DNA from: Planomonospora sp. ID67723
GTDB lineage: Bacteria; Actinomycetota; Actinomycetes; Streptosporangiales; Streptosporangiaceae
Direction: 5' to 3'
NCBI RefSeq assembly: GCF_015711605.1
Contig: NZ_JABTEZ010000002.1
Coordinates: 1,488,001-1,552,000, forward strand
DNA: 64,000 nt
In this document: piece after piece, positions 49,375 to 63,189 of the stretch
How positions within the stretch are numbered: the stretch's first letter is position 1
Layout: every line of letters begins with the position of its first letter
Position numbers and translations under genes: made by a program
Notes under the pieces: model-generated
Database searches by the model: none
Told to the model about the DNA's origin: nothing
The model's input: the letters and a program-made list of their open reading frames with translations, nothing else

Positions 49375-50282
49375 CCGCGGCCGAACCGATCCGGGCCGCG
49401 GTCCAGGCCGGGCCCGCCCCCGCCGCGGCCGGCCCGGCGGCGGATCCGGCGGGGCGGGGCACCAGAAAGGTCTTCCTCCTCACCGTCCTGGCCGCCGCTT
49501 CGGTGATCTTCCTGTTCCCGTTCGTCTGGCTCGTCGTCGCCTCGCTCAAGCCGCGCGACCGGACCTTCTCCGACCCGTTCCTGCCCTGGCCGGTGCCGTT
49601 CCGGCCGGAGAACTACGCGGCGGTCTGGGACGCCGCGCCCATGCTGACCTGGCTGGTCAACACGGTGGTCGTCGGCGTCGCGGCGGCGCTGACGGTCACG
49701 CTGTCCAGCGCCTTCGTCGCCTTCGGCTTCGCCTACTTCCGCTTCCCCGGCCGGAACCTGGTCTTCGGCAGCGTGCTGGCGACGATGATGCTCCCCGCCG
49801 CGGTCACCCTGGTGCCGACCTTCCTCATCTGGAACTCGGTGGGGCTGACCGGCACCCAGGTCCCCCTGTGGGCGGGCAACCTGTTCGGCTCGGCGTTCTA
49901 CATCTTCCTGCTGCGGCAGTTCCTGCTCGGCGTGCCCCGCTACGTCTTCGAGGCCGCCCGGGTGGACGGCGCGTCCTACCTCGACCTGTTCTGGCGGATC
50001 GCGCTGCCGCTCTCGCGCCCCGCGCTGATCATCGCCTTCATCTTCGAGCTCAAGGCCAGCTGGTTCGACCTCATGAAGCCGCTGATCTATCTGCAGGACC
50101 CGGCGCTCTACACGCTGCCGCGCGGGTTGAAGGCGGTCGTCGACCAGTTCTACCAGGGCGGCGACCCCAAGTGGGAGATCGTCCTGGCGGCCAGCGTGGT
50201 CACCACGCTTCCGCTGATCGGGATCTTCTTCCTCGGCCAGCGCTACTTCGTCCAGGGCATCGCCACCACCGGCCACCGCTGA
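49371..50282 (+). CDS. Sugar ABC transporter permease (MalG-like, second system)
   Basis: 303 residues from ATG 49371, overlapping the previous stop (ATGA). An alanine/proline-rich cytoplasmic start precedes VFLLTVLAAASVIFLFPFVW and the usual SLKPRDRTF segment; the EAA loop is FEAARVDGASYLDLFWRI. It is the last gene of the importer operon, followed by a strong terminator. An ATPase must come from elsewhere, most likely the MsiK-like protein of this window. Confidence 0.9.
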   Translation: MTAAEPIRAAVQAGPAPAAAGPAADPAGRGTRKVFLLTVLAAASVIFLFPFVWLVVASLKPRDRTFSDPFLPWPVPFRPENYAAVWDAAPMLTWLVNTVVVGVAAALTVTLSSAFVAFGFAYFRFPGRNLVFGSVLATMMLPAAVTLVPTFLIWNSVGLTGTQVPLWAGNLFGSAFYIFLLRQFLLGVPRYVFEAARVDGASYLDLFWRIALPLSRPALIIAFIFELKASWFDLMKPLIYLQDPALYTLPRGLKAVVDQFYQGGDPKWEIVLAASVVTTLPLIGIFFLGQRYFVQGIATTGHR

Positions 50283-50314
50283 GGGGACCCGCCGGCGGGC
50301 CCCGGCAGCCGGAA

Positions 50315-50357
50315 GGCCGCGGGGCCGTCCTTCTCGGGAGAGGACGGCCCCGCGGCC
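50315..50357. terminator. Strong bidirectional terminator
   Basis: A perfect 17-base stem (50315-50331 with 50341-50357) with the short loop TCTCGGGAG, between the second importer operon and the convergent CBS-domain gene. Confidence 0.75.
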
Positions 50358-50400
50358 GGTGGTGCGGACCCTCCGGTGCCGGAGGTCCGGCCGGTGGCGG

Positions 50401-50817
50401 TCAGTCGCTGCTGATCGCGTCGAGCAGGTCCCCGACCGGCCGGTCCGGCAGTGCCCGGGCCACGTCGGCCAGGGCGACGATCCCGACCAGCTTGTGGCCG
50501 TCGATCACCGGGAGCCTGCGCACCCGGTGCGAGGCCATCGTGCGGAGGATCTCCGCGGCGTCGTCGTCGGCGCCGATGGTCACGGCCTCACCCTGGGCCA
50601 GTTCTCCGGCCAGGCAGGACCCGGGGTCCTTGCCCTCGGCGAGCACCTTCACCACGATGTCGCGGTCGGTCAGCATGCCCTTCAGCCGGTCGTCGGTGCC
50701 GCAGATGGGCAGGGAACCCACCCCCAGGCGCGCCATCTTCCTGGCCGCGTCGAGAACCGTCTCGTCGGCGTTCACGCACTCCGCGTTCGGCGTCATGATG
50801 TCGCGTGCGGTCGGCAT
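50401..50817 (-). CDS. CBS-domain-pair protein
   Basis: 138 residues from ATG 50817 (AAAGGAG six bases upstream; the frame is open further up without support). Two CBS motifs are visible: ARDIMTPNAECVNADETVLD then LPICGTDDRLKGMLTDRDIV, and AVTIGADDDAAEILRTM then LPVIDGHKLVGIVALADVA. CBS pairs bind adenine nucleotides and act as energy or redox sensors. It stands alone with no catalytic domain, as is common for the stress-related HRP1-like proteins of actinobacteria. It is monocistronic. Confidence 0.9.
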   Translation of the reverse strand: MPTARDIMTPNAECVNADETVLDAARKMARLGVGSLPICGTDDRLKGMLTDRDIVVKVLAEGKDPGSCLAGELAQGEAVTIGADDDAAEILRTMASHRVRRLPVIDGHKLVGIVALADVARALPDRPVGDLLDAISSD

Positions 50818-51004
50818 TCTCGCTCCTTTCGGTGGTTGCGGAATCCTGCGGCTGCCCGCGGGGAACCGGATGAAACCGCCGGAACGGGCGGAACGCGGCG
50901 CAAGAGACCGGTATCGCGCGGCTGAGCTGCGCAAGGGGGCCGGCGAAATGTCTCCGGCCGGCGGAGGACCGTTTGCCGTGCGGGGCCAGGGGTAACGAGG
51001 TGCG

Positions 51005-52444
51005 GTGTCCGAGTTATCGCGATTACGACGTTATGTCCCTGCACGTCAGGATCTCCGGGTCCGCTGGCGGCTTTCGGTGACGGAGTTCCTGTTCACTCCC
51101 CTGCTCATGGTCCTCGGGTCCGTCGCGCTCGCGGTGGGGGCCGTCCTCCTCGACAGGTCCTCGCCGGACTGGCCCGGCGAGGTCCGGGGCGTCTTCCTGC
51201 GCCTGTTCCCGCACGACAACCTCGTCAGCATGCTGCGGGTGGTCGCGACCGGGCTGGTGACGGTGACCACGCTCACGCTCTCGGCGCTGCTGGTGGCGAT
51301 CTCGCACACCGCGACGACCGTCGCCCCCGTCGTGTTCGACCAGTTCCTGCGGCGCAGGGCCAACCAGGCCTACTTCGGCTACGTCGCCGGCTGCGCCACC
51401 TACACCTATCTCGTCATGGCCGTCATGCGACCCGAGTGGGCCGGGGTCGGCGCGCTGCTCGCGCTCGTCCTGGCCGCCGTGGCGCTGGTCCTGCTGGTGT
51501 TCATGGCCTACGCCATGATCGACCAGATGCGCCCGACCTCCGTGGTGCGCTCGATCCAGGAGCTGGCCTTCAAGGCCCGGCTGCGCCAGCTCCCCCTGCT
51601 CGCCCGATCCCGCATCCGGCCGCTCCTCGAAGGGGAGTCCGTCCCCGTGACCACCCGGGCGACCGGTTACGTGGTCGACATCAGCACGGCCCGCCTGGCC
51701 AAGCTGCTGGCCCCCACCGGGGACGCCGTCGAGGTCGCCTTCCAGGTGCGGATCGGTGACCTGCTCGCCTACGGCGACACCGTCGCGCGGATCCGCGGCG
51801 GGAGCGAACGGCAGCGCCGTACGGTCGCCGACAGCGTGCTCGACTGCGTCACGATAGACCGGGTCCGCAACGCCGACGTCGACCCGGACCACGCCATCGA
51901 GCAACTGGGCAACGTCGCCTGGGCGGCCACCTCCACCCGGCAGAACCCGGACGTCGCGCTCGCCTCGGTCGGCGCGCTGCGTGATCTGTCGGCCCGCTGC
52001 GCCGCCGCCGGGGTTCCGGACGCGCAGGCGTACGGCGGGGAGCTGCCGGTGGTCTACGACGACGCCCTGCAGCGCCGGATCGTGGCGGCCCTGGTCGACC
52101 TGGTGGTGGTCAGCACCTCCTCCCGGCAGCACCAGACCTGCGCCGTGGCGCTGTCGACCCTCGCCGAGATCCTGCCCCAGCTCGCCGGCCGGGACCGCGA
52201 CATCGCGGTCAGGAGCCTGCAGCGGGCGCTTCCGGCGACGTTGTCGCATGTGGCCAGCGTGGAGATGGGGCGCGGCCTGGCCAAGCTGCGGGCCGCGTTC
52301 GACGCGATCGGCCGCGAGGACATGGCCGACCAGGTCCGCGACATGGGCCCCCGCCTGGTCAGGGAGAGCGGCCTCGACGACGACCTCATCGGCCACCTCG
52401 ACGAGTACGACATCACCGGGCCGCGTCCCTTCCGGTACCGCTGA
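51005..52444 (+). CDS. DUF2254 family membrane protein
   Basis: 479 residues from GTG 51005 with a GAGG-type site just upstream. Four membrane helices lie in the first 180 residues (FTPLLMVLGSVALAVGAVLL, LVTVTTLTLSALLVAISHTA, YFGYVAGCATYTYLVMAVM, LLALVLAAVALVLLVFMAY). A roughly 300-residue cytoplasmic domain follows, with RATGYVVDISTARLAKL and VAFQVRIGDLLAYGD. These match the DUF2254 family of predicted membrane proteins with unknown function; the domain after the helices may form an S1-like beta fold. It is divergent from the CBS gene by 187 bases. Confidence 0.85.
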   Translation: MSELSRLRRYVPARQDLRVRWRLSVTEFLFTPLLMVLGSVALAVGAVLLDRSSPDWPGEVRGVFLRLFPHDNLVSMLRVVATGLVTVTTLTLSALLVAISHTATTVAPVVFDQFLRRRANQAYFGYVAGCATYTYLVMAVMRPEWAGVGALLALVLAAVALVLLVFMAYAMIDQMRPTSVVRSIQELAFKARLRQLPLLARSRIRPLLEGESVPVTTRATGYVVDISTARLAKLLAPTGDAVEVAFQVRIGDLLAYGDTVARIRGGSERQRRTVADSVLDCVTIDRVRNADVDPDHAIEQLGNVAWAATSTRQNPDVALASVGALRDLSARCAAAGVPDAQAYGGELPVVYDDALQRRIVAALVDLVVVSTSSRQHQTCAVALSTLAEILPQLAGRDRDIAVRSLQRALPATLSHVASVEMGRGLAKLRAAFDAIGREDMADQVRDMGPRLVRESGLDDDLIGHLDEYDITGPRPFRYR

Positions 52445-52521
52445 GGCCGCTCCGGTCCCCGCATCCGCCGATCCTTCCGTACGGGGAGCCGCGAACAGGC
52501 CCGCACGCACCGGTGCGGATC

Positions 52522-53631
52522 TCACCGGGTACCGCCGGGCAGCACGATCTGCGCCTCCTGCGGCAGGTCGTACAGCGGCGTCCGGCCCCCCGCCTCCGTC
52601 CACGTCTCCAGCACGGACCCGGTCAGTACGGCGAAGCCGTCCCCGACCGGCGCGATCGGCGTCTCGCCCGGACCGGGCCGCAACCGGGCCAGCTCCCGGC
52701 CTCCGGTGTCGTACGCGACGACCGCCGTGAGGTCCGGTGCCACGGCGTAGATCCTCTCCCCGGCCACCCGGATCGCCGGGCCGCCGTCCGGAGTGACCAG
52801 CGGGACGGTGCCCGCCTCCAGCGTGATCCGCCGCCCGGAGTCGCCGACGGCCAGAGTGACGCGGGTGGAGCGCTTGCCGTACCGGCTCTCGTCGAACAGC
52901 AGCGGCTCGCCGGAGGCGAGCATGCCGACCGGCTCGAACCCCGGGGGCGGGGTGAGCGCGGTGGTACGGCCATCGGCCAGGTCGACCGTGACGTAGGCCC
53001 CCACCTCGCCGTCGGCGTGGTGGCCGAGCACGAGCCGCCGTCCGTCGGCCGACCAGGTCCACGGGCTGTAGACCGCGCCCGGCGCGCCGTCCCGTGGGGC
53101 CTCGATCCTGTGGACGGTGCCGCCGGTCAGGTCGCGCAGCTCGTAGCCGGCCGCGGTCGGCAGGCCGAGCCAGCGGCCGTCGTGTGACAGAGTCAGGTTG
53201 CCGTGCGGCGGCGCGGTCTTCTCGCCCAGCAGGTACTGGCGGCCGTCGGCGGTCAGCAGGTAGGTCGGGCAGCCGTGCATGCAGGCGGTGTAGATCAGCC
53301 GGCCGGAGACGCCGGTGCCCCCCTCGGGGAGCGGGGGCGCGTTCTCCGGCGGCCTGACCGCGATCGGCCCGGTGGCGCCGGGTGCGGGCCCCGCGGAGGC
53401 CGTCGTGCCGGTGGCGGGTCCGCCGCCCTGGGACGTCCACGGCCCGTACCCGGTCACCCCCACCGTCACCGCCGCCACCGCGGCCGCGGCGAGGGCGGCG
53501 GCCGCCGTCGCACGCCGGGTCCTGCGGCGCCCGGCCGCGGCGACGGCCCGGGCCGGGTCGGCGTAGTCGCGCGCGCCCTGCTCCAGCTCGCCGTACGCGG
53601 TGCGCAGCACCTCGGCTTCCCTGTCCTCCAT
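52522..53631 (-). CDS. Membrane-anchored beta-propeller-like protein, probable partner of the sigma factor
   Basis: 369 residues from ATG 53631, with GGAGGGGAG upstream. A GTG at 53664 that overlaps the sigma-factor stop (GTGA) is an alternative. The N-terminal cytoplasmic part (VLRTAYGELEQGARDYADPA) is followed by one membrane helix (ATAAAALAAAAVAAVTVGVT) and a long extracytoplasmic region. That region has repeated strand/WS-D-GR patterns (YSPWTWSADGRRLVLGHHAD, LSHDGRWLG), typical of WD40/TolB-like propellers. Genes in this position behind SigE-type ECF factors often encode anti-sigma or sensor proteins; no zinc-type HxxxCxxC motif is present, so the anti-sigma role is unproven. Confidence 0.75.
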   Translation of the reverse strand: MEDREAEVLRTAYGELEQGARDYADPARAVAAAGRRRTRRATAAAALAAAAVAAVTVGVTGYGPWTSQGGGPATGTTASAGPAPGATGPIAVRPPENAPPLPEGGTGVSGRLIYTACMHGCPTYLLTADGRQYLLGEKTAPPHGNLTLSHDGRWLGLPTAAGYELRDLTGGTVHRIEAPRDGAPGAVYSPWTWSADGRRLVLGHHADGEVGAYVTVDLADGRTTALTPPPGFEPVGMLASGEPLLFDESRYGKRSTRVTLAVGDSGRRITLEAGTVPLVTPDGGPAIRVAGERIYAVAPDLTAVVAYDTGGRELARLRPGPGETPIAPVGDGFAVLTGSVLETWTEAGGRTPLYDLPQEAQIVLPGGTR

Positions 53632-53660
53632 GGAACGGCTCCCCTCCTGCGGTCCGGCGT

Positions 53661-54170
53661 TCACGGGCGCGCTTCCTTCGACGTCTCCAGCAGCTCCGGC
53701 GCGACCTTGCGCAGCCGGGCGAGAGCATCGTGGAGATGCCGCTTGACCGTACCGAGCGAGCAGTTCAGCCGCGTGGCGATCTGCTCCTGCGGAAGGTCCT
53801 CGTAGAAGCGCAGATAGAGCACCGCTCTCTGCCGCGGTGACAGGACGGCCAGCGCGCGGGCGAGCATGACCCTGCGGTCGCTGTCGCCCGAGCCGTCGGC
53901 GGCGACCGGCTCGGGTACCTCGGCCGCGCTGAAGAACGTCAGGCGGCGCGGTCGCCGCCAGGTCCGCAGCTGGTTGAGCATGACGGTGCGGACGTACGCC
54001 TCCGGGTCGCCGCCGGCCGCGATCCTGCGCCAGTGCGTGACCGTCCTGGTCAGCGCCTCCTGCAGCAGGTCGGCCGCCGTGTGGTGGTCGCCGGTGAGCA
54101 GGAAGGCGGTCCGCGACAGCGCGAGGCCGCGAGCGGCCACGAACTCGTGGAAGCCTTCAGGATCTGTCAC
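53661..54170 (-). CDS. SigE-type ECF RNA polymerase sigma factor
   Basis: 169 residues from GTG 54170 with GAGGGG five to six bases upstream; the frame extends to 54275 without support. Region 2 is FHEFVAARGLALSRTAFLLTG then LLQEALTRTVTHWRRI, and region 4 is LSPRQRAVLYLRFYEDLPQEQ then IATRLNCSLGTVKRHLHDAL. This is the short SigE70/SigE family of actinobacteria. It directs polymerase to stress promoters and is followed, with near overlap, by a membrane propeller protein that probably controls it. Confidence 0.93.
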   Translation of the reverse strand: MTDPEGFHEFVAARGLALSRTAFLLTGDHHTAADLLQEALTRTVTHWRRIAAGGDPEAYVRTVMLNQLRTWRRPRRLTFFSAAEVPEPVAADGSGDSDRRVMLARALAVLSPRQRAVLYLRFYEDLPQEQIATRLNCSLGTVKRHLHDALARLRKVAPELLETSKEARP

Positions 54171-54324
54171 GGGTGCCCCTCGCCTCGCGGATGTTCTCAC
54201 CCCGGTAAACCGATGCCGGCACGCGAAAGGTTGGGGGCCGGGCGCAGAAATTTCACGCCGCTGCGGGAACGTCACGCCGTTGCGGGCGCCCGTGCAGGAC
54301 GGGCGCCCGCGCGGGGACGGACGT

Positions 54325-54711
54325 TCACGCCGGGACGAGCAGCAGGAGCAGCCCGGCGAGCAGCACCGCCGCCGCCTGCGCGAAGGAGACCGCCGAGACG
54401 GGGGCGGCGGTGCCGAAGCACAGGCAGGGCGCCCGGTCCCCGACGGCCAGCAGGTAAGCCTGCAGGCCGGTGAAAACCGTGCCGAGGGCCGTACCCGCCG
54501 CCCCCACCAGTACGGCAGGGGCGGGGGAGAGGGCCAGTGCCACCGCGAGCGCCTCCACGGCGATGATCGTGGAGGCGCCCGCCCAGGTCGCCGGGCCGTA
54601 CAGCCCGTAGCGGCCCAGGGAGAGGCGGAAGGCGGTGAAGTGCCGCGCTTTGCCCGCCACGGCGAGGGCGAGGAGGACGGCCAGGCCGTACCGGGCGAGG
54701 AGCGTGGTCAC
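54325..54711 (-). CDS. MauE-like membrane protein (DoxX/MauE family)
   Basis: 128 residues from GTG 54711, overlapping the upstream stop (GTGA). About four membrane helices, with an RAPCLCFG motif (Cys96, Cys98) between helices 3 and 4. Such a cysteine pair before a final helix is typical of MauE-family proteins, which take part in disulfide formation or cofactor maturation for exported methylamine dehydrogenase. It is the last gene of the operon that begins at 57165 and includes a MauD-like thioredoxin and a Tat-exported cysteine-rich protein, so redox maturation of that protein is the likely job. Confidence 0.72.
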   Translation of the reverse strand: MTTLLARYGLAVLLALAVAGKARHFTAFRLSLGRYGLYGPATWAGASTIIAVEALAVALALSPAPAVLVGAAGTALGTVFTGLQAYLLAVGDRAPCLCFGTAAPVSAVSFAQAAAVLLAGLLLLLVPA

Positions 54712-55253
54712 CGCAGAACCACCAGGACGAACACCAGGGGGACGGAGGCGAGAACGAACAGCGGCTTCAACTCCGGCAGTGCGAAGTCGAAGGCCTTGTC
54801 CGCCGCGGCCTTGTCCCGTGCCAGCAGGAAGGTGAGGAGCATCAGCGCCCGGCCCAGCGCGAACCCGGTGCCCGCCAGGAGCGCGTCGGACCACGAGCCG
54901 AGCAGGAGCAGGCAGAGCGCCATGATGTGGGGGAGACCGGTGGGCGAATACGTGCGCATACCGGTTCCCATCTCCGCACCGAACTGCACGGAGCCCCAGA
55001 ACGGGGTCATCGCCACGAACTGCGGCACCAACCGGGCGTTCTGCAGGAGCGGGAACTTCAGCACATTGAATTCCCGCAGGACGAAGACCAGCGCGGCCAG
55101 CCCGGCCAGGACCTGGCGGGCGAGTTCGGGCAGCGGAGCACGCAGCACCGAGCCGACGACCACGAAGGCGAGCGCGGTCGGCAGCGCCGCGAGAAACAGG
55201 CCGGTGATGAAACCGGCCGCGTCAGAACCTCGCCGGACCGACGAGGACAGCAC
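54708..55253 (-). CDS. Multi-pass membrane protein, in frame with an upstream short gene across a TGA
   Basis: 181 residues from GTG 55253. About five hydrophobic segments (FITGLFLAALPTALAFVVVG, VLAGLAALVFVLREFNVL, HIMALCLLLLGSWSDALLAG, FALGRALMLLTFLLARD, PLFVLASVPLVFVLVVLR), with a conserved-looking loop GAEMGTGMRTYSPTGLP. The start has no good ribosome binding site. The frame reads back six codons to a TGA at 55272-55274 and then through the 47-residue upstream gene, so the two may be one gene split by a stop. The stop overlaps the MauE-like start. Family not recognised; a DsbD/CcdA- or MauF-like role is speculation from context. Confidence 0.6.
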   Translation of the reverse strand: MLSSSVRRGSDAAGFITGLFLAALPTALAFVVVGSVLRAPLPELARQVLAGLAALVFVLREFNVLKFPLLQNARLVPQFVAMTPFWGSVQFGAEMGTGMRTYSPTGLPHIMALCLLLLGSWSDALLAGTGFALGRALMLLTFLLARDKAAADKAFDFALPELKPLFVLASVPLVFVLVVLR

Positions 55254-55271
55254 CCAGGCGCTGTTGAGGCT

Positions 55272-55415
55272 TCAAACCGAGCCGGACAGGGAGAACCCCG
55301 CCACGAGCGCGGCCGCGAGCCACACGAAGCCGCCGGGGCCGTACCACAAGGCTGCGAGCTCGGCCACGACGACGGCCGACAGCCCCGGGACGAGCAGGCG
55401 AGTCGCTGTGGTCAT
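55272..55415 (-). CDS. 47-residue membrane protein, probably the 5' part of the next gene
   Basis: ATG 55415, three bases after the stop of the Tat-exported protein gene, gives MTTATRLLVPGLSAVVVAEL followed by a second hydrophobic stretch (FVWLAAALVAGFSLSGSV) and a TGA. The same frame continues six codons later into the 181-residue membrane protein. Read through, the two would make a 235-residue protein with two extra membrane helices, and the join (SGSV-stop-SLNSAWVLSS) looks continuous in character. It is therefore either a real small subunit or the front of a gene with a nonsense or recoded TGA. Confidence 0.5.
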   Translation of the reverse strand: MTTATRLLVPGLSAVVVAELAALWYGPGGFVWLAAALVAGFSLSGSV

Positions 55416-55418
55416 GGA

Positions 55419-55910
55419 TCAGATCGCGGTCCGGCAGATGGAGAAGCGGGAGACGTTGCCGCCGCCGCAGTCGTGGTACTCGTAGTGCCCGTCCGAGCAC
55501 TTGCGCCGGGCGGTACGGCCGGTCCAGCGCCAGGCGTTCCTGCCGTCGCATTCGGTGGGCTTCGGCCGATAGCGGAAGTTGTAGCAGGTGCCCGAGCCGC
55601 CCTGGTCCTTGTGCCAGCTGCCGTTGCAGTTGCCGCTGAACAGGGCGCTGCTGGGCACGCAGACGGTGCTGGAGTCGAAGTAGCCGCGGCAGTCTCCCAT
55701 CCCCCACTGGGTCAGGGCGTCGGCGGCCTTCGGCTTGGACCACGGGAGCAGGTCGAGAGCCCCCAGTCCCGCGGCGACGGTGACGCCGGCGACGGTGCCC
55801 AGCAGGCGGCGGCGGCTCCAGCGGGCGGTCTCCTTCACGGCGACCCGGCTGGGCTGGGCGTTCTCCGGCATCACCTCGGCACTGGGGATGCGGCTGAGGA
55901 TGTCTGTCAC
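55419..55910 (-). CDS. Tat-exported eight-cysteine protein, MauA-like in outline
   Basis: 163 residues. A twin-arginine signal (WSRRRLLGTVAGVTVAAGLG, residues 31-50) follows an unusually long N-terminus. The exported domain has cysteines at 74, 84, 95, 109, 121, 138, 148 and 159, enough for four disulfides, and tryptophans at 69, 99, 127 and 129. The segment YEYHDCGGGNVS recalls, from memory, the YRDCCGYNVS region of methylamine dehydrogenase light chain, which also has a Tat signal and many disulfides, but only 8 of its 12 cysteines are matched in number and no MauG gene is near. The ATG overlaps the MauD-like stop (ATGA). Folding before export would need the neighbouring redox proteins or late oxidation outside. 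Confidence 0.65.
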   Translation of the reverse strand: MTDILSRIPSAEVMPENAQPSRVAVKETARWSRRRLLGTVAGVTVAAGLGALDLLPWSKPKAADALTQWGMGDCRGYFDSSTVCVPSSALFSGNCNGSWHKDQGGSGTCYNFRYRPKPTECDGRNAWRWTGRTARRKCSDGHYEYHDCGGGNVSRFSICRTAI

Positions 55911-56398
55911 AGGGAGGGTTCCTTTCTGGCGGCGGCGCGTTCGACGAGGGCGGCCACGGCCTCCCCCGATCCCGCGGGGGTGGTGAAAACGATCGTGCCC
56001 TGTTCGTCGACGACCAGCAGGGCGGGCGTGTAGGGCACGTTGATCGAGCGCCAGACCTTCGCGTCGGTGACGACCTGGACGTTCTCCGGCAGTGGCTTGT
56101 CGAAGGCGGGGTCGTCGGAGATGACGGCGAAGGACACGTCGTCGGGCAGTTCCGGGGCCAGCTTGGCGATGGCCGCCACGACGTCGTCGCAGATGGGGCA
56201 GCGGCGGTTGATCTTGGCCACGAGGGTGGTCGCGCCCGGCCGTCCGATGGACAGGCTCTCCTGCGGCAGTTGAATCCCCACGCCGTTGTAGGTGGCCAGC
56301 TCCAGCTCCTTGACCCGGCGGAACAGCCCGGCCCCGGCGGCCGCGAGCAGGGCCACCAGCACGAAGAGGATGACGAGCGCGGCGGTGGTCGGCTCCAC
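55907..56398 (-). CDS. MauD-like membrane-anchored thioredoxin
   Basis: 163 residues from GTG 56398, chosen because GGGGAG lies seven bases upstream; a GTG two codons earlier overlaps the previous stop (GTGA). One N-terminal membrane helix (LVILFVLVALLAAAGAGLF) anchors an extracytoplasmic thioredoxin-like domain with the redox motif CPIC (67-70) and the cis-proline region VPYTPALLVVD. MauD proteins have this architecture and are needed for disulfide formation in the methylamine dehydrogenase light chain. Here the substrate is probably the eight-cysteine protein encoded directly downstream. Confidence 0.8.
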   Translation of the reverse strand: MEPTTAALVILFVLVALLAAAGAGLFRRVKELELATYNGVGIQLPQESLSIGRPGATTLVAKINRRCPICDDVVAAIAKLAPELPDDVSFAVISDDPAFDKPLPENVQVVTDAKVWRSINVPYTPALLVVDEQGTIVFTTPAGSGEAVAALVERAAARKEPSL

Positions 56399-56400
56399 CG

Positions 56401-57165
56401 TCACGCTCCCCAGCGGGCGCTCTTGACCCGGGACAGGAAGTCGGCCGCGACGCCCAGCGCGTTGCTCTGCTCCTGCGCCGACCGGGCCTGCGGCGACTGG
56501 CCCTGCTGGCCCTTGCGCGGGACGTCCCACGGGTCGAGGGTGACCACCGCGCTCTCGGTGGCCAGCATGAGCGACTCGTACTCCGGTCCCTCGGTGCTGC
56601 TCATCCGCCAGATCTCGCCGGCCGGGGTGGACAGTCCCCGCCAGGCCGGCACCGGGGTGGAGGAGCTTCTCTTCGGCTCGACCTGCAGGGTGCCCACCCC
56701 CGCCACGGGCAGGAAGTACTGCACGAGCTGGAGGTTGAAACGCCGCCCCGGGGAGACGGTCATGCCCTCGGGCGTGTCGGTCCACCGGACCCGGGAGAGG
56801 ACCTGCAGGACGTCGTTGGCCTCCCACTGCGGCGCGTAGAACATGCCGTGCACCATGTTCCACGGCCCCACCCAGGTCGCCCACCGGGCGTCGGGGATGT
56901 CGCCGCAGTCGTAGATGATGACCTCGCCGCCGTTGTAGGCGAAGCGCTCGCGCTCCGTGCCGCGGACCGAGTTGGCCCCGGCGCCCAGCGAGCTCTTGGG
57001 CGCCAGCTCCATCGCCCACACGTCGGCGGTGTTCCCCCGGGCGCCGTATCGCGGGGTGTAGCGGATGTGCCCGGTCCAGGAGTGCAGTTCCTCGGCGGTC
57101 ACCCCTTCCAGATCGAGCGTGACCAGAGAATTATCCACCGCACGGACGGTTGAAGTTTGGACCAT
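56401..57165 (-). CDS. Uncharacterised 254-residue protein leading the mau-like operon
   Basis: From ATG 57165; the nearest purine-rich site (AGGAGAGG) is 13 bases away, long for a ribosome binding site. No signal peptide or membrane helix is visible, so it is either cytoplasmic or exported with a partner. Recognisable stretches such as TAEELHSWTGHIRYTPRYGA, EVIIYDCGDIPDARWATWVG and MFYAPQWEANDVLQVLS suggest a beta-rich globular protein with many tryptophans and tyrosines; I do not know the family. It is not the beta-propeller heavy chain expected in a true methylamine dehydrogenase. Its stop overlaps the MauD-like start. An inverted repeat lies upstream. Confidence 0.65.
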   Translation of the reverse strand: MVQTSTVRAVDNSLVTLDLEGVTAEELHSWTGHIRYTPRYGARGNTADVWAMELAPKSSLGAGANSVRGTERERFAYNGGEVIIYDCGDIPDARWATWVGPWNMVHGMFYAPQWEANDVLQVLSRVRWTDTPEGMTVSPGRRFNLQLVQYFLPVAGVGTLQVEPKRSSSTPVPAWRGLSTPAGEIWRMSSTEGPEYESLMLATESAVVTLDPWDVPRKGQQGQSPQARSAQEQSNALGVAADFLSRVKSARWGA

Positions 57166-57686
57166 TCTGTTCGTTTTTCCTCTCCTGGCGATAGGTGAAG
57201 GGAGAACAGCGACGCCGAGAAGAATGACGACAGACGAGTTGAGCAGCGGAAATGGGCATGCTCAAGAGGATTCCCCGTCGATCTCTCCCCGTGTTCGCAC
57301 CCCGAGTGAACGCCCCCCATGGTTGATCATGGAGGAGGTTTAACGCAAGAGAAATTCAGAAATATCGTCGCCCTCATTTCCGGGCCGCATGTCTCCCGAG
57401 GCGGCCGGGCGTCGGGCGGTCGCGGAGGGCCGGTCCCGGAGTCGCTCCGGGGTCGCTCCGAGGAGTGGTCTCAGGGCCGGTCCGACGCTGGTCGGCCGTT
57501 CAGGGAACGGCCCGGGGGCGGGTCCGGCGCCGGTCCCGGGCACCGGTCCCGCGGTCGCGACGACGGCACTTGATCATGTTGTTGCGATTCGGTAGGTTCG
57601 GTCGGCGGCGGGGATCCCAGAGAAAAACGCTCCTCGGCCATTTCTCACTTCGGTGAACGACCGCTCTCGTCCGAAGGAAGCGAACA
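57166..57686. other. 520-base intergenic region between divergent genes
   Basis: No gene is supported here. The left part (57166-57380) is comparatively AT-rich and should hold the promoter of the mau-like operon; it contains the TTGAGCA/TGCTCAA dyad listed separately. The right part is GC-rich with short, imperfect GGTCCCGG/TCGCTCCG-like repeats and a small hairpin (GGCCGTT 57494-57500 with AACGGCC 57506-57512). The last 100 bases (57560-57660) are again AT-richer and may carry the sugar dehydrogenase promoter. Confidence 0.5.
57239..57265. promoter_or_regulatory. Inverted repeat upstream of the mau-like operon
   Basis: TTGAGCA (57239-57245) and TGCTCAA (57259-57265) are perfect seven-base inverted repeats with centres 20 bases apart, about two helical turns, 74-100 bases before the first start of the operon. 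They are a candidate dimer binding site for an unknown regulator. Confidence 0.4.
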
Positions 57687-58829
57687 ATGTCATTCCCGAC
57701 GCCCTCGGAGAACGCCGCCCGCAGGTCGAAATACGTACGCGCGGCGCTACTCGGCGTCGCCGTTCTCGTGGCGGTTCCGGCCGCCGCCCACGCGAATGCG
57801 GCACCGCACGCGAACACGGTGACCAAGGAAATCGCGGCGGTTCACGCCGATACGGCGACCGCCACCGATCCGGTCGTGCACAAAACCATCGCCACGGACC
57901 TGCAGGTCCCCTGGGGGGTGGCGTTCCTGCCCCGGCGCGAGACGCTCGCCAGCGAGCGCAACACCGCGCGCGTGCTGTCGGTCACCCCGTCGGGCAAGGT
58001 CCGCGAGGTCGGCGTCGTGCCGGGTGTGAACGCGGCCGGCCAGGGCGGGCTGATGGGCCTGGCCGTCTCCCCGTCCTTCGCCAGGGACCGCTACGTCTAC
58101 GCCTACCTCACCGGCGAGACCGACCAGCGGATCGTGCGCATGCGCTACACCGGCGGCAGGCTCGGCGCGCCCGAGCCGGTGCTGACCGGCATCCCGACGG
58201 GCACCTCGCACCTGGGCGGGCGGATCGCGTTCGGCCCCGACGGCTTCCTCTACGTGGGCACCGGCGACGCGGGCACCCCGGACTCCGCGCAGGACCGCCA
58301 GAGCCTGGGCGGCAAGATCCTGCGGATCACGGCCGACGGCGCGCCCGCGCCCGGCAACCCGTTCCCGGGCTCGCCGGTCTACTCCCTGGGCCACCGCAAC
58401 GTGCAGGGCTTCGGCTGGGACTCCCGGGGGCGGCTGTGGGCCTCGGAGTTCGGCCAGGCCACCTGGGACGAGCTGAACCTGATCACGCCGGGCGCCAACT
58501 ACGGCTGGCCGGTCGTGGAGGGCCAGGCGTCGACTCCGGGCTTCGTCGATCCGCTGTGGCAGTGGTCCCCGGCCGAGGCGTCCCCCAGCGGGCTCGCGAT
58601 CGCCGACGACGTGATCTACATCGCGGGGCTGCGCGGCCAGCGGCTGTGGCGCATCCCGCTGCAGGGCGAGGGCATCGGCACTCCCGCGGCGTTCCTGACC
58701 GGCGAGTACGGCAGACTGCGCACCGTCGTCCGCGCTCCCGGCGGGAAGCTCTGGCTCACCACGAGCAACCGCGACCAGCTCGGCACCCCGCGCCCCGGCG
58801 ACGACAAGATCCTGAGTGTGAAGCCGTGA
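57687..58829 (+). CDS. Secreted PQQ-type sugar dehydrogenase (YliI/aldose dehydrogenase family)
   Basis: 380 residues; the ATG follows AAGGAAGCGAACA. A signal peptide (KYVRAALLGVAVLVAVPAAAHANA) leads into a six-bladed propeller of the glucose/sorbosone dehydrogenase family: VPWGVAFLP, GGLMGLAVSPSFARDRYVYA, TGTSHLGGRIAFGPDGFLYV with the catalytic His, GTGDAG, LGHRNVQGFGWD, WASEFGQATWDELN and GANYGWPVVEG. It oxidises aldoses outside the cytoplasm with pyrroloquinoline quinone. No PQQ synthesis genes are in the window. Divergent from the mau-like operon. Confidence 0.92.
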   Translation: MSFPTPSENAARRSKYVRAALLGVAVLVAVPAAAHANAAPHANTVTKEIAAVHADTATATDPVVHKTIATDLQVPWGVAFLPRRETLASERNTARVLSVTPSGKVREVGVVPGVNAAGQGGLMGLAVSPSFARDRYVYAYLTGETDQRIVRMRYTGGRLGAPEPVLTGIPTGTSHLGGRIAFGPDGFLYVGTGDAGTPDSAQDRQSLGGKILRITADGAPAPGNPFPGSPVYSLGHRNVQGFGWDSRGRLWASEFGQATWDELNLITPGANYGWPVVEGQASTPGFVDPLWQWSPAEASPSGLAIADDVIYIAGLRGQRLWRIPLQGEGIGTPAAFLTGEYGRLRTVVRAPGGKLWLTTSNRDQLGTPRPGDDKILSVKP

Positions 58830-59134
58830 CACCGCAACCGCTCTCCGCGACCGGCGAGGAGACCGCCGCCGGGGCCGTCGCCGCGCCACGCTCCGCGGGC
58901 GGGAGCTGGGGACGTCGTCGGCCGGCGGGCGTGCCTCGCTGACGTCGCTGCTGGCCGCGGGCTCCTGGACGCCGGAGGCGATCGCGGACGGGCACGCGGC
59001 CGTCCAGCGGTTGCAGGCCGAGATGTTCGACGGGCGCAGGAACCGCCTGGTCCGCCTCGGCTTCCCGCCGGACGAGGCGGCCGGGCTGTCGGCCCTGCAC
59101 ACCCGGAACTTCATGTGGGAACGAGAGGACGGCG
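58830..59134. other. Gap before selD with a coding-like relic
   Basis: No complete gene is visible. One plus frame, about 58942-59115, reads TSLLAAGSWTPEAIADGH...MFDGRRNRLVRLGFPPDEAAGLSALHTRNFM, which has the composition of a real protein C-terminus. It has no start or ribosome binding site, and no stop until it runs out of frame into selD. It may be the 3' end of a gene whose front was lost. The remainder (58830-58940) looks like an arginine-rich shadow frame. Confidence 0.35.
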
Positions 59135-60139
59135 ATGAACGGGGGAACGGCGATGCGGTTGACGCAGTACGCGCAGGGCGGCGGGTGCGCCTGCAAGATC
59201 CCGCCCGGGGAGCTGGAGGAGGTGCTCACCGGGCTGGGCGTCCCGGCTCCGGAGCAGGCCTGCGGCGAGCTGATCGTGGGCCTGGAGACGGGCGACGACG
59301 CGGCCGTGGTCCGGATCGAGGGCGGTACGGCCGTCGTGGCCACCGCCGACTTCTTCACACCCGTGGTGGACGACCCCTACGACTGGGGCAGGATCGCCGC
59401 GGCCAACGCGCTGTCCGACGTGTACGCGATGGGCGGGCGCCCGCTGATCGGGGTCAACCTGCTGTGCTGGCCCCGGGACGTCCTGCCGTACGAGGTCGCC
59501 CGGGAGGTGCTGCGCGGCGGTGCGGCGGTCGCGGCCGAGGCCGGGTGCCACCTGGCGGGCGGGCACACCGTCAACGACCCCGAGCCGAAGTACGGCATGG
59601 CGGTGACCGGGACCGCCGACCCCGAGCGGCTGCTGCGCAACGACCGGGGAGCGGCCGGGCTGCCGCTGACGCTGACCAAGCCGCTCGGCCTGGGCGTGCT
59701 CAACAACCGGCACAAGGCGACGGGCGAGGTGTTCAAGGAGGCCGTCGAGACGATGACCCGGCTGAACGCCGAGGCCAGCCGGGCCGCCCTGGAGGCGGGC
59801 GTCCGGTGCGCCACCGACGTCACCGGGTTCGGGCTGCTCGGCCACCTGTACAAGCTGGCGCGGGCATCGGGGGTGTCGGCGGTGGTCGACACGGCGGCGG
59901 TGCCGTACCTGGCCGGAGCCCGCGAGGCCGTGCGTGACGGGTACGTGCCGGGAGGGACGCGGCGCAACCTCGACTGGGTCGCGCCGCACGCCGACCTCGG
60001 CCGGGCGGACGAGGGGACCCGGTTGCTGCTGGCCGACGCCCAGACCTCCGGCGGGCTGCTGCTCGCCGGGGAAATCCCGGGCGCGCCGGTGATCGGGGAA
60101 CTCGTGCCCCGGGCGGGGCACGTGCTCATCCTGCGCTGA
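59135..60139 (+). CDS. selD: Selenide, water dikinase
   Basis: 334 residues from ATG 59135 (GAGAGGA upstream); an ATG at 59153 with GGGGGA upstream would give the more usual start MRLTQYAQ. It makes selenophosphate from selenide and ATP. The active-site loop is GGGCACK (Cys18 in the reactive position, Lys21), a cysteine form rather than selenocysteine. ATP-binding motifs GDDAAVV, TADFFTPVVDDPYDWGRIAAANALSDVYAMGG, GGHTV and DVTGFGLLGH are present. No selA, selB or tRNA-Sec gene was seen in the window, so its use in selenocysteine or selenouridine synthesis cannot be told from here. Confidence 0.94.
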   Translation: MNGGTAMRLTQYAQGGGCACKIPPGELEEVLTGLGVPAPEQACGELIVGLETGDDAAVVRIEGGTAVVATADFFTPVVDDPYDWGRIAAANALSDVYAMGGRPLIGVNLLCWPRDVLPYEVAREVLRGGAAVAAEAGCHLAGGHTVNDPEPKYGMAVTGTADPERLLRNDRGAAGLPLTLTKPLGLGVLNNRHKATGEVFKEAVETMTRLNAEASRAALEAGVRCATDVTGFGLLGHLYKLARASGVSAVVDTAAVPYLAGAREAVRDGYVPGGTRRNLDWVAPHADLGRADEGTRLLLADAQTSGGLLLAGEIPGAPVIGELVPRAGHVLILR

Positions 60140-60210
60140 CACTCCTGCGCTGACACCGCGCAGAGGTCTCGCTCCGGCTGCCCGGCCGGACGGACCACCG
60201 CCTCGGGACA

Positions 60211-60885
60211 CTAGCCCTCGACGTCGGTGGCGCCGTGCGGCGTGCCGACCGGCTTGGACTCGGGGGAGCCCCGCTGCCGCAGGTAGATGGAGAGCACCAC
60301 CATCGACAGCACCGCGAGGAACTCCGACTGCCAGTTCTGCAGGGTCCGGTTCCAGAAGTCGGCCGAGGTGACGTACTCCCCCCAGCTCACCGGGTCCTGG
60401 AGCCGGGCCAGCCGCTCGGAGTTGCGGCTCGCCTGACCGGCCACCGACTGGGCCAGCCACGACAGCAGGAAGACCAGCCCCATCACGGTGCCGAGGGAGT
60501 TGCCGTACAGCGTCTGCCGCAGGCCGGTGGCCTTGGCCCAGGCCGGGCTGTCCGGATCGGCGTGCCGCCCGACCTTCTGCTGCTCGTCGCTCTCCGGGCC
60601 CTCGTCCCCGGGCTTCTTCGACTCCGGCGAGCCGCGCTGCACCCACCAGACCGTGGCCATGATGAACAGCAGGAACTGCAGGTACTCCGACTGCCAGTTC
60701 TCCGCGACGTCGACGGCGAACTCGGAGGAGGTGACGTACTCCGGCCAGGAGACCGCGGCTCCGCCCTCGGCGCGCTGGCGCTCGTTGTAGGCGGCGTTGC
60801 CCGCCACGGACTGGCCGGCCAGCGCCAGCGCGAACAGGAGCAGGAAGAACAGGCTGAGCGCGTTGTCCTTGGCGAAACGTCTCAC
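60211..60885 (-). CDS. DUF6766 family membrane protein with internal duplication
   Basis: 224 residues from GTG 60885, with AGGAGGGACC spanning the stop of the preceding small gene. Two similar halves (about 5-95 and 125-215) each contain a helix ending in QSVAG, then VSWPEYVTSS or VSWGEYVTSA, NWQSE(Y/F)L, a second helix and RGSPESK. So there are four membrane helices in a head-to-tail repeat, joined by an acidic linker (GDEGPESDEQQ). Function unknown. It is the last of a three-gene operon with a lipoprotein and a 27-residue membrane peptide. Confidence 0.8.
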   Translation of the reverse strand: MRRFAKDNALSLFFLLLFALALAGQSVAGNAAYNERQRAEGGAAVSWPEYVTSSEFAVDVAENWQSEYLQFLLFIMATVWWVQRGSPESKKPGDEGPESDEQQKVGRHADPDSPAWAKATGLRQTLYGNSLGTVMGLVFLLSWLAQSVAGQASRNSERLARLQDPVSWGEYVTSADFWNRTLQNWQSEFLAVLSMVVLSIYLRQRGSPESKPVGTPHGATDVEG

Positions 60886-60893
60886 GGTCCCTC

Positions 60894-60977
60894 CTATCGG
60901 TCGAGCAGGCCGACGGCGAGGAGATATGCCAGGCCGGCCACGATGATGACGAGTGTCGTGACGAACATCAGGCGCAT
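60894..60977 (-). CDS. 27-residue single-helix membrane peptide
   Basis: ATG 60977, with GGAGGGCTGAG directly upstream, encodes MRLMFVTTLVIIVAGLAYLL then AVGLLDR and TAG. It is one hydrophobic helix with a positively charged N-terminus and a charged end, the composition of a real membrane peptide. Its start lies one base after the lipoprotein stop and its stop codon overlaps the ribosome binding site of the DUF6766 gene, so it is firmly built into the operon. A small regulatory or stabilising subunit of the DUF6766 protein is plausible. Confidence 0.6.
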   Translation of the reverse strand: MRLMFVTTLVIIVAGLAYLLAVGLLDR

Positions 60978-60978
60978 C

Positions 60979-61374
60979 TCAGCCCTCCACCTCGCAGTCG
61001 TAGGGCAGGTCGCCGCGGGGGCGGCAACCCGCCCCCCGGACCAGCCACCCCTGCGTGAAGCGGTGCAGGAAGACGGTGTCGCGCGCCAGCCGTACCTGGG
61101 CCTCGTCGCCCCAGACCCGGGTCCCTGTCACGTCGCCGCCGGGCAGGGCGAGAGCCAGGACGGCCTGCTCGCACGTCTCGCCTGCGGCCCGGAGGCCCTC
61201 GGCGGCCTCGGGGGTCAGCAGCGAGCAGGCCTGACCGCCCTGCCCGCCCGCCACCGCGGCGTAGAAGCGCAGCACCGCCCGCTCGGCGGCCGGCCCATCG
61301 GCGGAGGCGCAGCCGGACAGAGCCAGCAGGCTCGTCAGAGCCGCTCCGGCCGCGAGTGTGCTTCGCGTGTTCAT
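60979..61374 (-). CDS. Small lipoprotein
   Basis: 131 residues; the ATG follows GGAGGGGCCG. A lipoprotein signal with lipobox LSGC (Cys22) precedes an NTF2-like small domain: AERAVLRFYAAVAGGQGGQAC, LLTPEAA, CEQAVLALALP, RVWGDEAQVRLARDTVFLHR and GWLVRGAGC. Four further cysteines could form two disulfides. Function unknown. It heads the operon with the 27-residue peptide and the DUF6766 protein. Confidence 0.78.
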   Translation of the reverse strand: MNTRSTLAAGAALTSLLALSGCASADGPAAERAVLRFYAAVAGGQGGQACSLLTPEAAEGLRAAGETCEQAVLALALPGGDVTGTRVWGDEAQVRLARDTVFLHRFTQGWLVRGAGCRPRGDLPYDCEVEG

Positions 61375-61404
61375 CGGCCCCTCCTACCCCGCCGACAACC
61401 GACG

Positions 61405-62394
61405 TCACATGAGCAGATCGGTCAGGACGGCCGGGCGGTCCCCGGTGACCTCGGCGATCAGGCGGTCCCAGTCGGACAGGAACCGGCCCAGGCCGTAGCG
61501 GGCGAGCGCGGCGGCGCGGGCGGTCCTGCCGACCTGCCGGGCCAGCTCCGGCTCGCCGACGAAGGCGTCCAGCGCGGCGGTGAGGACGGAGACGCGGGTC
61601 GAGATCACCCCGGCCTCCGGAGGCACCGCCTCCACGGCCTCGGTGGTGGCCAGCGCCACCACCGGCATGCCCAGCAGCATGGCCTCGATCAGGGACAGGC
61701 CGAGCGAGGTCCACCGGTAGGGGTGGAGGTACACCCGGCGCCGGGCCAGTTCGGCGTGCATCCGCGCCTGCGGCAGGTCCTCGAAGACGCCCACCGGGAT
61801 GCCGAGGTGGTCCGGCAGGCCGGTGACCCCCATGCCGAACACGTCCAGCGGCGCCTCCTCGGCGAACTGCGGAAGCAGGTCGGTGCCCGCGACCCGCTCG
61901 CGCCGGATCGGCTCGTTGACCACGACGCCCGCCCGGGGCAGCTCGCCGGTGTAGAGGTAGCCGGGATCGACGACGCCGTGCTCGATCACGCGCGTGGGGG
62001 CCCGGCCGCAGTCCCAGAACAGGTGGTTGAAGTGGGTCACGTGGACCACGGGGATGTCGTCGCGCTCGGCCAGCGGGTGCCGGGTGGCCGGGACCTCGCC
62101 CTTGGGGGTGTTGTGCTCGACGTAGACGGCCGGCACGTCCCGGCCCGGGCGGCGGCCCAGCCACTCGGCGGCCAGCTCCAGCTCGTGCGGACGCTGCAGG
62201 ACGACCAGGTCCACGTCCTCGTCGCGGAGCCGGTCGGCGGGCACCTCGCGGGCGGCCTCCGGCCAGGGATAGGTCTGCGCCCGGCCGCGCCCGTCGGGGC
62301 CCCGGTCCGGGGTGAGGGGCACCAGGTAGTCGTGGGCGCCGTGCACGAACGACGTGGTCCACGAGCCGTGCACGTGCCAGAGCAGGACTCTCAC
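61405..62394 (-). CDS. Glycosyltransferase (GT-B, family 4-like)
   Basis: 329 residues from GTG 62394 with GGAGG seven bases upstream, overlapping the stop of the phosphatase gene (GTGA). The N-terminal Rossmann domain (VRVLLWHVHGSW, DLVVLQRPHELELA, VYVEHNTPKGEV) and the C-terminal donor domain (LDVFGMGVTGLP, VYLHPYRWTSLGLSLIEAML, GMPVVALATTEAVEAVPPE) with the EX7E-type glutamates resemble GT4 enzymes. It transfers a sugar from a nucleotide donor. Coupling to a GmhB-type phosphatase suggests a heptose or related sugar, but this is inference. Confidence 0.85.
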   Translation of the reverse strand: MRVLLWHVHGSWTTSFVHGAHDYLVPLTPDRGPDGRGRAQTYPWPEAAREVPADRLRDEDVDLVVLQRPHELELAAEWLGRRPGRDVPAVYVEHNTPKGEVPATRHPLAERDDIPVVHVTHFNHLFWDCGRAPTRVIEHGVVDPGYLYTGELPRAGVVVNEPIRRERVAGTDLLPQFAEEAPLDVFGMGVTGLPDHLGIPVGVFEDLPQARMHAELARRRVYLHPYRWTSLGLSLIEAMLLGMPVVALATTEAVEAVPPEAGVISTRVSVLTAALDAFVGEPELARQVGRTARAAALARYGLGRFLSDWDRLIAEVTGDRPAVLTDLLM

Positions 62395-63002
62395 GATGCG
62401 ACCTCCCCGGCCGTCTGGATCTTTTCTCCGCCCGGTACGGCGAGCGGGGGCCGCTCCACCGCCGCGGGCTCCGCGGTGCGGCCGAGGACCAGGTCGACCG
62501 CGGCGGCGAGGTCGGCGGCGACCTCCCCGGCGGCGGCGACCTCCCCGGGCAGCGTCACGGCCGTGGGCACCAGGATGCCCCGGGCCCCGGCCGCGCGGGC
62601 GGCCTCGACGTCCCTGCCGATGTCGCCGATCACCACGCAGTCGCGGGCATCCACGCCGAGGGCCGCCGCCGCGCGCAGCACCAGCCCGGGGGCGGGCTTG
62701 CGGCAGGCGCATCCGTCGGCGTCGTCGTGCGGGCAGATCGCCCACACGTCGAACGGCCCGAGCAGCTCCTCGACGCGGGCGTTGACCGCCTCCAGCTCCC
62801 GGGGCCCGATCAGGCCCCTGGCGACGCCGGACTGGTTGCTCACCACCCCCACCGGCACGCCCGCCCGGCGGAGCCGGTCCACCGCGGCGCGCCCGCCCGG
62901 AACCGCCTCGACCAGTTCTGGATCGTTGTTGTAGGGGACGTCGTGAACGAGTGTTCCGTCACGATCGAACAGCACGGCGGCGGGCCGTTTCCCGTGCGGC
63001 AC
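62391..63002 (-). CDS. HAD-IIIA phosphatase, GmhB/HisB-N type
   Basis: 203 residues from GTG 63002, which has GGAGG five bases upstream; a GTG two codons earlier abuts that site. Motif I is FDRDGTLVHDVPYN, motif II VVSNQSGVARG, the zinc-binding loop CPHDDADGCACRKP, and motifs III/IV KPAPGLVL and VVIGDIGRDVEAA. This pattern is that of D-glycero-D-manno-heptose 1,7-bisphosphate phosphatase and histidinol phosphatase; the zinc loop with C-x-H and C-x-C is complete. The C-terminal 50 residues are a low-complexity alanine/valine/glutamate tail. It is divergent from the carbamoyltransferase gene. Confidence 0.88.
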   Translation of the reverse strand: MPHGKRPAAVLFDRDGTLVHDVPYNNDPELVEAVPGGRAAVDRLRRAGVPVGVVSNQSGVARGLIGPRELEAVNARVEELLGPFDVWAICPHDDADGCACRKPAPGLVLRAAAALGVDARDCVVIGDIGRDVEAARAAGARGILVPTAVTLPGEVAAAGEVAADLAAAVDLVLGRTAEPAAVERPPLAVPGGEKIQTAGEVAS

Positions 63003-63140
63003 GAGCACCTCCGGAGGGATTGTTCGCTGGTCTCGGGTCGCTACCCGGTCGTCCGAAAACTAACCCTAAAAAAACTACTTAGCGTAACAAGTCGCAGCTC
63101 GCAGCCTTTCTAGCTGCACTTCTACCCAATGATGGTGTTT

Positions 63141-63154
63141 GAGAAGCGCTTCTC
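63141..63154. promoter_or_regulatory. GAGAAGCGCTTCTC palindrome, candidate operator
   Basis: A perfect 14-base palindrome 36-49 bases before the carbamoyltransferase start, in an unusually AT-rich intergenic stretch (63055-63175 includes a run of seven A at 63067-63073). Symmetric sites of this kind bind GntR- or LacI-like regulators; no regulator gene is visible before the window ends. Confidence 0.5.
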
Positions 63155-63189
63155 TCGGTAGTGGTTAAGCATCTGCGGGAGGCGAATCC

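Follow-up and report, generated by a model that had tools for sequence, protein, structure and literature searches.

Electron transfer in the CcdA/DsbD family of membrane proteins (PF02683) follows a two-cysteine scheme, and CcdA is paired with a membrane-anchored TlpA-like protein. A locus that recalls this family, and also the maturation genes of methylamine dehydrogenase (Mau) clusters, was studied in a window of 64,000 nucleotides from Planomonospora sp. ID67723 (contig NZ_JABTEZ010000002.1, positions 1,488,001 to 1,552,000). The minus strand of window positions 54325-57165 carries five coupled genes, designated A, B, C, U and F. As in the CcdA/DsbD family, a membrane protein (U) stands beside a membrane-anchored TlpA-like protein, and a sister family of U matches CcdA-type proteins at an SPC motif; U differs in that it would have selenocysteine (Sec) for the first cysteine, has no second one and shows no direct significant similarity. 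With the Mau maturation genes (MauE, MauD) the locus shares a MauE family protein, a thioredoxin-like partner and a Cys-rich product exported by the twin-arginine translocation (Tat) route, and it differs from Mau clusters in that C is not MauA by PF02975 and in the addition of a membrane carrier that is a putative selenoprotein.

Three other described groups are close in part. TsoB (NF045694; PMC13188914, Table 1) is, as listed there, a selenoprotein named for its DsbD-like part and differs by its motif UxxxxU, two Sec residues and a rhodanese domain. The selenoprotein form of YeeE/YedE (PF04143), in the same table, is a transporter family with the listed motif GUxSG, and its profile comparison with U gave 0.5%. 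Finally, decRiPPter reported Streptomyces clusters with MauE and MauD homologues, in which proteins of at least 8 Cys are candidate peptide precursors (PMC7794033); the likeness is by description only, and Sec is not mentioned in the part of that paper that deals with these families.

The genes of the operon are:
56401-57165, minus strand: gene A, 254 amino acids, first gene of the operon, without known family
55907-56404, minus strand: gene B, 165 amino acids, membrane-anchored thioredoxin-like protein (TlpA/MauD-type) with CPIC and an N-terminal hydrophobic segment
55419-55910, minus strand: gene C, 163 amino acids, predicted Tat-exported protein with eight Cys and the core NAWxW...CSDG
54708-55415, minus strand: gene U, predicted 235-amino-acid membrane selenoprotein, two open reading frames (ORFs) joined through TGA
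54325-54711, minus strand: gene F, 128 amino acids, MauE membrane protein with CLC

Overlaps of 4 bases join A/B, B/C and U/F, and a gap of 3 bases separates C and U. The positions agree with those of an earlier note made from the sequence of the window. Where that note counted one or two membrane proteins after C, the membrane gene was confirmed, and it appears to encode one 235-residue protein through an in-frame TGA.

Probable reading of gene U through UGA

A frame of 47 residues starts at ATG 55415 and is closed by the TGA at 55274-55272, beyond which it continues in phase to 54708, so that ordinary ORF calling splits U into two ORFs. The site and the hairpins that follow it are:
55272-55274, minus strand: UGA predicted to encode Sec at residue 48 of U, TGA in all aligned relatives
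55247-55264, minus strand: first hairpin, with a register that differs between two subfamilies
55229-55245, minus strand: second hairpin, similar to a bacterial Sec insertion sequence (bSECIS), loop GGUCC here (consensus GGUCU), 32 nt from UGA to loop

When C was searched against 297 genomes of the order, 41 had any match, and at the best 30 loci U aligned straight through the site, with TGA each time (30/30). An alignment of U joined across the TGA was then used to scan named genomes, which gave 122 relatives; their best 80 loci hold 82 aligned U copies, all with TGA at the site. Every listed U match that spans the site in the 297 genomes has one TGA; four rows lack a stop, and these begin beyond the site. 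Neither TAA nor TAG was found at the site in the 82 copies or the order-wide listed matches, nor was any Cys copy of U's own family. In 81 thinned sequences the residues SGS and NS around residue 48 and the motif FGxEMGTGxRT in the second half are invariant. U therefore shows what is expected of a bacterial selenoprotein, a conserved in-frame UGA with coding sequence on both sides.

The locus might instead hold two genes, a 47-residue peptide and a 181-residue membrane protein re-initiated at a GTG 21 bases further on. Mechanical ORF calling does yield the second piece, and the GTG is present in the window. However, the most conserved motif of U, SGSxUSxNSA, straddles the TGA, and the codon at the position of the GTG begins with C in 34 of 57 distinct sequences, which therefore have no usual start there.

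The hairpins were evaluated in 58 distinct U sequences against 500 shuffles and against versions slid along the alignment. In helix 2 (columns 31-35 with 41-45) 99.7% of the cells were paired. Its outer pair was UA in 23 sequences, UG in 23, GC in 11 and UU in one; U on the first side went with the Arg codons CGA (23), CGG (23) and CGU (1), and G with CGC (11). Since the 3' base of this pair is the third base of the invariant Arg codon, a synonymous change there tracks a Ser/Ala change. Helix 1 was paired in 80.5% of the cells in one register, the registers of the two subfamilies being two bases apart. The proportion of cells paired (89.2%), the number of two-sided cells (25; shuffle mean 8.2) and the covariation score exceeded all 500 shuffles, and against the slid versions pairing and covariation score stood out. 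The bSECIS model, as given in section 5 of PMC13188914, has G at the first two loop positions and a distance of 16-37 nt from the UGA; helix 2, at 32 nt and with a GG-type loop in most sequences, lies within these two limits, which were applied, the energy limit not being applied formally. An Rfam scan of 50000-64000 gave a single match, below the gathering score, and nothing relevant.

The host genome holds the machinery for Sec. Matches to selA (433 bits) and selB (259 bits) were both over the cut-off, as was a tRNA-Sec of 74 bits, which adjoins selB on the same contig about 1.25 Mb from the operon. The remaining component lies in the window:
59135-60139, plus strand: selD-like gene (Cys form, GGGCACK) with AIRS domains, a divergent neighbour 2 kb from the operon

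The gene is called selD-like on the strength of its motif, not of a selD model, and it is likely a functional partner of the operon from outside it. The U profile matched in 90 of the 297 genomes of the order, with weak or fragmented matches in two of them (G248, G285). In each of the 90 the tRNA-Sec match has an E value of 3.7e-13 or lower, as checked by eye, and tRNA-Sec exceeds the family cut-off in 191 of the 297; if the genomes were independent, the chance of this co-occurrence would be 2e-22. In a genome of the host's genus (G007) the U profile found nothing, and tRNA-Sec was matched at 3.4e-8 at best. At 23 of the 80 named loci tRNA-Sec (18), selD (20) or selB (17) lies within the fetched stretch.

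U might also be a gene in which UGA is read as an ordinary amino acid, or a decaying pseudogene, as an in-frame stop could suggest. The strict conservation of TGA, the intact frame downstream, the lack of TAA or TAG at the site and the association with tRNA-Sec and SelB speak against both possibilities, which are hardly credible.

Several further copies and neighbourhoods were observed. Another TGA-containing U gene of the host (L149, 5432-7960, contig 3) stands beside its own A and C, where the simple gene caller called no B. Four U matches were found in one genome (G251), and in two Planobispora loci (L036, L037) a selD-like homologue adjoins gene A. The genome of Amycolatopsis vancoresmycina (L054) carries a U gene with TGA; this organism was listed in 2016 among those with an 'orphan SelD' (PMC5029168, Table 1), and the passage of that paper on Sec-using organisms without known selenoproteins describes them as few and ascribes them mostly to incomplete genomes.

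Cysteine copies were found in the sister family only. The U profile matched in 31 of 396 genomes of the phylum, including the host, and most of the other matches belong to a distant sister family with the motif WSP[U/C]GxSM. Its loci (L118-L145) come from other Actinomycetota, all but one from a class other than that of the host. The motif filter caught 25 of 29 sister loci, 22 with TGA and three with TGC; L117, L131 (masked), L141 and L145 were missed by the motif or length filter, and the last two show TGA. Each of the six pairs of a hairpin after the TGA is formed in 17 to 22 of the 22 TGA copies, with a compensation of C-G to G-C (16 and 5 copies), whereas in the three Cys copies the six pairs hold in 2, 3, 2, 1, 0 and 2 of 3. 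SelB was over the cut-off in 23 of 25 TGA genomes versus none of three Cys genomes (Fisher p 0.003). The two TGA genomes without it (G413 and G640, 86% and 84% complete) have partial SelB matches. One genome (G604) was tallied as TGA from the profile search alone, the place of its TGA not being checked. G563 and G485, the latter with a partial match that gave no locus, stand outside the tally and both have SelB over the cut-off. Among 20 genomes without a match (the first listed, all of the host's class and not a random draw) SelB was over the cut-off in three. The Sec/Cys pairing is thus classical in form and is seen in the sister family only, through which alone Cys homologues are found mainly where the machinery is absent.

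Two separate genes would leave the compensatory hairpins, the co-occurrence with tRNA-Sec and SelB and the Cys copies unexplained, and are extremely improbable. Because of the conserved TGA, the hairpin, the Sec machinery, the co-occurrence with tRNA-Sec and the Cys copies of the sister family, U is almost certainly a selenoprotein. The following points weigh against this reading. Two of the five covariation measures do not stand out from the shuffles, namely the count of pairs changed on both sides (445/500) and that of additional pair types (247/500). Sliding by +3 gave 34 two-sided cells against 25. The probabilities of co-occurrence are overstated, since the genomes are related and not independent. 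Finally, Sec at residue 48 is deduced from nucleotide sequence.

Affinity of U and a possible electron relay

The grouping of the genes was assessed around 112 U copies, which come from two locus sets with some genomes in common (thinning at 92% identity leaves 83 of 110). Within 5 kb and on the same strand, A was found at 110 copies, B at 111 and C at 107, all three being present at 105 of the 112. The seven copies without the full set include two near the edge of the locus (L055, L097); at L073, L075, L092, L107 and L112 a Cys-rich protein, its core C-like by eye, lies between B and U. The grouping of A, B and C around U is not due to chance, and the operon has been retained in many genera. 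Absence of the arrangement in relatives, which would have refuted the earlier note, did not appear in the neighbourhood survey: a MauE protein (PF07291), a partner of thioredoxin type and a Cys-rich protein exported by Tat form a conserved set. F was near only about 69 of the 112 copies; its profile drifted during the search, and F motif counts were not used.

The AlphaFold2 model of U is all-helical, with a mean predicted local distance difference test (pLDDT) score of 90.7 and a predicted template modelling (pTM) score of 0.89, and residue 48 starts a helix after a break. Among the best 50 of 202 Foldseek matches the highest probability, 0.72, was that of CcdA (5vkv), at E 0.24 with a template modelling score of 0.36 and poor superposition. 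The U profile matched that of the sister family at 99.3% (E 1e-20), with residue 48 on the SPC/SPU residue, and the sister family matched CcdA-type proteins of relatives at 96.3% (E 1.7e-9, 208 columns) on the SPC motif. These comparisons suggest that U quite probably belongs to the CcdA/DsbD superfamily. U probably descends from a CcdA-type carrier and works like one; it is not filed as a member of that family, the second redox Cys being lost.

The best overall explanation, which we favour somewhat, is that U is a CcdA/DsbD-like protein that carries Sec and relays reducing equivalents to B and C. U would take them from a cytoplasmic thiol donor and hand them on through its single selenol, by way of a transient selenenylsulfide, to the outward-facing B. 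In turn B, perhaps with the MauE-like F as an oxidising or docking partner, would set or repair the disulfides of C, with A perhaps assisting C or U from the cytoplasm. For the specific route of electrons from U through B to C the balance is even.

The evidence against this explanation is of several kinds. The fold search of U gave no PDB chain at E 0.001. The direct comparison of U with CcdA was not significant (hhalign, 0.2%), so the link to CcdA rests on the sister family. Eighty-one U members gave only scattered weak matches in Pfam, none of them to PF02683. U compared with the MauE and YeeE profiles stayed under 1%, the MauE control being weakened by the drift of the F profile. Residue 48 is the only invariant Sec/Cys position in the 81 U sequences, and a protein without a second conserved Cys cannot cycle as CcdA does. 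In addition, F was found near only part of the U copies, as counted above, and both the interaction of B, C, F and U and the direction of electron flow are predictions.

U could instead be a selenoprotein that acts as a transporter, or that senses peroxide or thiols through its one selenol, in an operon for selenium or sulfur species or for peroxide stress at the wall. Its single redox residue, the presence of a YeeE/YedE selenoprotein family in the catalogue table of PMC13188914 and the frequent position of these genes beside selD and tRNA-Sec would suit such a role. However, with only three sequences on the YeeE/YedE side, the profile value of 0.5% does not place U in that family, and PF04143 is absent among the listed Pfam matches of the 81 members. 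The alignment of the sister family with CcdA at the SPC motif and the constant pairing of U with the thioredoxin-like B and the exported Cys-rich C also favour the relay of reducing equivalents, and a transporter or sensor is an unlikely alternative.

Exported protein C and its partners

Protein C carries a Tat signal (TIGR01409, 19.4 bits, cut-off 16.7) and matched no other family in Pfam or NCBIfam, so that the unrelated described family that could have overturned the earlier proposal did not appear. Over 69 aligned sequences it has five invariant Cys, two invariant Trp (WxW) and one Asp. Gene A (56401-57165) likewise had no hit in Pfam or NCBIfam with E of 1 or less, nor in the PDB with E of 10 or less, in keeping with its first description as a protein outside known families. 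B matched Redoxin (PF08534) weakly, at E 0.0082 and below the family cut-off; CxxC is present in 102 of 113 matches of its family, and the remaining 11 appear to be truncated or out-of-frame pieces. Pfam assigns F to MauE (PF07291, E 1.8e-15, 57.8 bits, cut-off 27), and a tblastn search with it against plasmids gave no match.

The earlier note saw here the maturation half of a methylamine dehydrogenase cluster, without heavy chain and MauG and with C only loosely like the light chain, and proposed that it may be a distinct system for a disulfide-rich exported protein, perhaps modified at tryptophan. On one reading, C would be a MauA-like subunit with a tryptophan-derived cofactor and the operon its maturation set, as MauE, the thioredoxin-like B, the Tat leader, the Cys-rich product and the invariant WxW could indicate. 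C as MauA was rejected, neither the window protein nor the 69 aligned members matching PF02975. Across 296 genomes of the phylum the same profile gave a single weak match (8.4e-4), with nothing above the cut-off, and it had no match in the Cys-rich proteins of the sister family. MauA was absent from the best 50 of 1030 fold matches of the C model, which is of moderate quality (pLDDT 74.4, pTM 0.64), and neither the MauB heavy chain nor MauG was noticed by eye among the ORFs near the operon, no profile search for them being made. The resemblance to Mau maturation genes therefore stands for MauE, the thioredoxin-like partner and the Tat-exported Cys-rich protein and fails for the light chain. 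For tryptophan modification there is no evidence beyond the WxW, and a MauA-like C is very improbable.

Domain fusions in relatives point elsewhere. PG_binding_1 was found in all five longer C-like proteins tested, those of L073, L075, L092, L107 and L112 (Actinophytocola, Streptomyces). In the sister family B-like genes are present at 24 of 29 loci and F-like genes at six; a Tat-type protein with 15-17 Cys per 100-residue window is next in 12 of 25 short loci. In two more genomes, one of them with a Cys copy, longer stretches encode proteins of 22 and 24 Cys. All five sister Cys-rich proteins tested have LGFP repeats. A search with such a protein gave 56 records, and among the 20 matches listed it was mainly the LGFP part that aligned. 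C itself can be aligned with the Cys-rich proteins of the sister family over 46 columns, which cover no more than the Tat leader. That the two families show different fusions to wall-binding domains suggests a cell-wall role for the exported product, and by extension from these relatives C probably acts there too.

The same fusions bear on the possibility that C is the precursor of an exported Cys-rich peptide of the ribosomally synthesised and post-translationally modified (RiPP) type, with B, U and F as modifying enzymes. decRiPPter describes such candidate families (PMC7794033, in the part on these clusters). Against it, peptidoglycan-binding or LGFP domains occur in some relatives of C and in sister Cys-rich proteins, and the operon is retained across many genera, so a RiPP-like C is improbable.

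Novelty, significance and neighbouring features

U had no match in Pfam or NCBIfam (June 2026) at E up to 10, and scattered weak family matches were all that 81 and 18 of its relatives gave. Among the 119 families of a catalogue of May 2026 (PMC13188914) no entry in its table fitted U by name or motif, entries without a motif not being comparable. No description of U was found among the top-ranked open-licence papers of each search or in the family libraries, the families of Haft and Tolstoy 2025 being compared through the table of PMC13188914 only. The sole record with a U match in the annotated collection has no gene table at that place. U thus appears to be a widespread, undescribed selenoprotein.

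A broader proposal is that a large undescribed clade of single-selenol CcdA-like carriers, each accompanied by a thioredoxin-like protein and a Cys-rich wall protein exported by Tat, is a main user of Sec in many actinomycetes and helps to explain why they retain the Sec machinery. This is put forward tentatively, doubt slightly prevailing. The two U genes of the host speak for it, as does the result that no match to one formate dehydrogenase family (TIGR01553) in the host genome was over the cut-off or held a stop, other selenoprotein families not being searched. Sec-containing formate dehydrogenases reported in other actinomycetes, in the relevant part of PMC7176365, speak against it.

The family, with matches in 90 of the 297 genomes of one order, has its gene broken in two by ordinary ORF calling, and no Cys copy of its own was seen to reveal it. 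A redox carrier in the membrane that works with one selenol would challenge the two-cysteine scheme of CcdA/DsbD, and a role for selenium at the cell surface of actinomycetes is suggested. The operon is also a concrete case in which to test what MauE/MauD-type modules do apart from methylamine metabolism.

A glucose/sorbosone dehydrogenase-like gene (57687-58829, plus strand; PF07995, E 9.6e-72) separates the operon from the selD-like gene; by gene calls, no gene of this type stands at the matching place in Planobispora L036. Just downstream of the operon, an apparent extracytoplasmic function (ECF) sigma factor gene (53661-54275, minus strand) is followed by 52522-53664 (minus strand), the names being given by eye, and both genes might be co-regulated with the operon. 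Further away, ARAGORN called a tRNA-Phe at 21146-21237 (minus strand), which at 92 bases is unusually long and may be a false or odd call.

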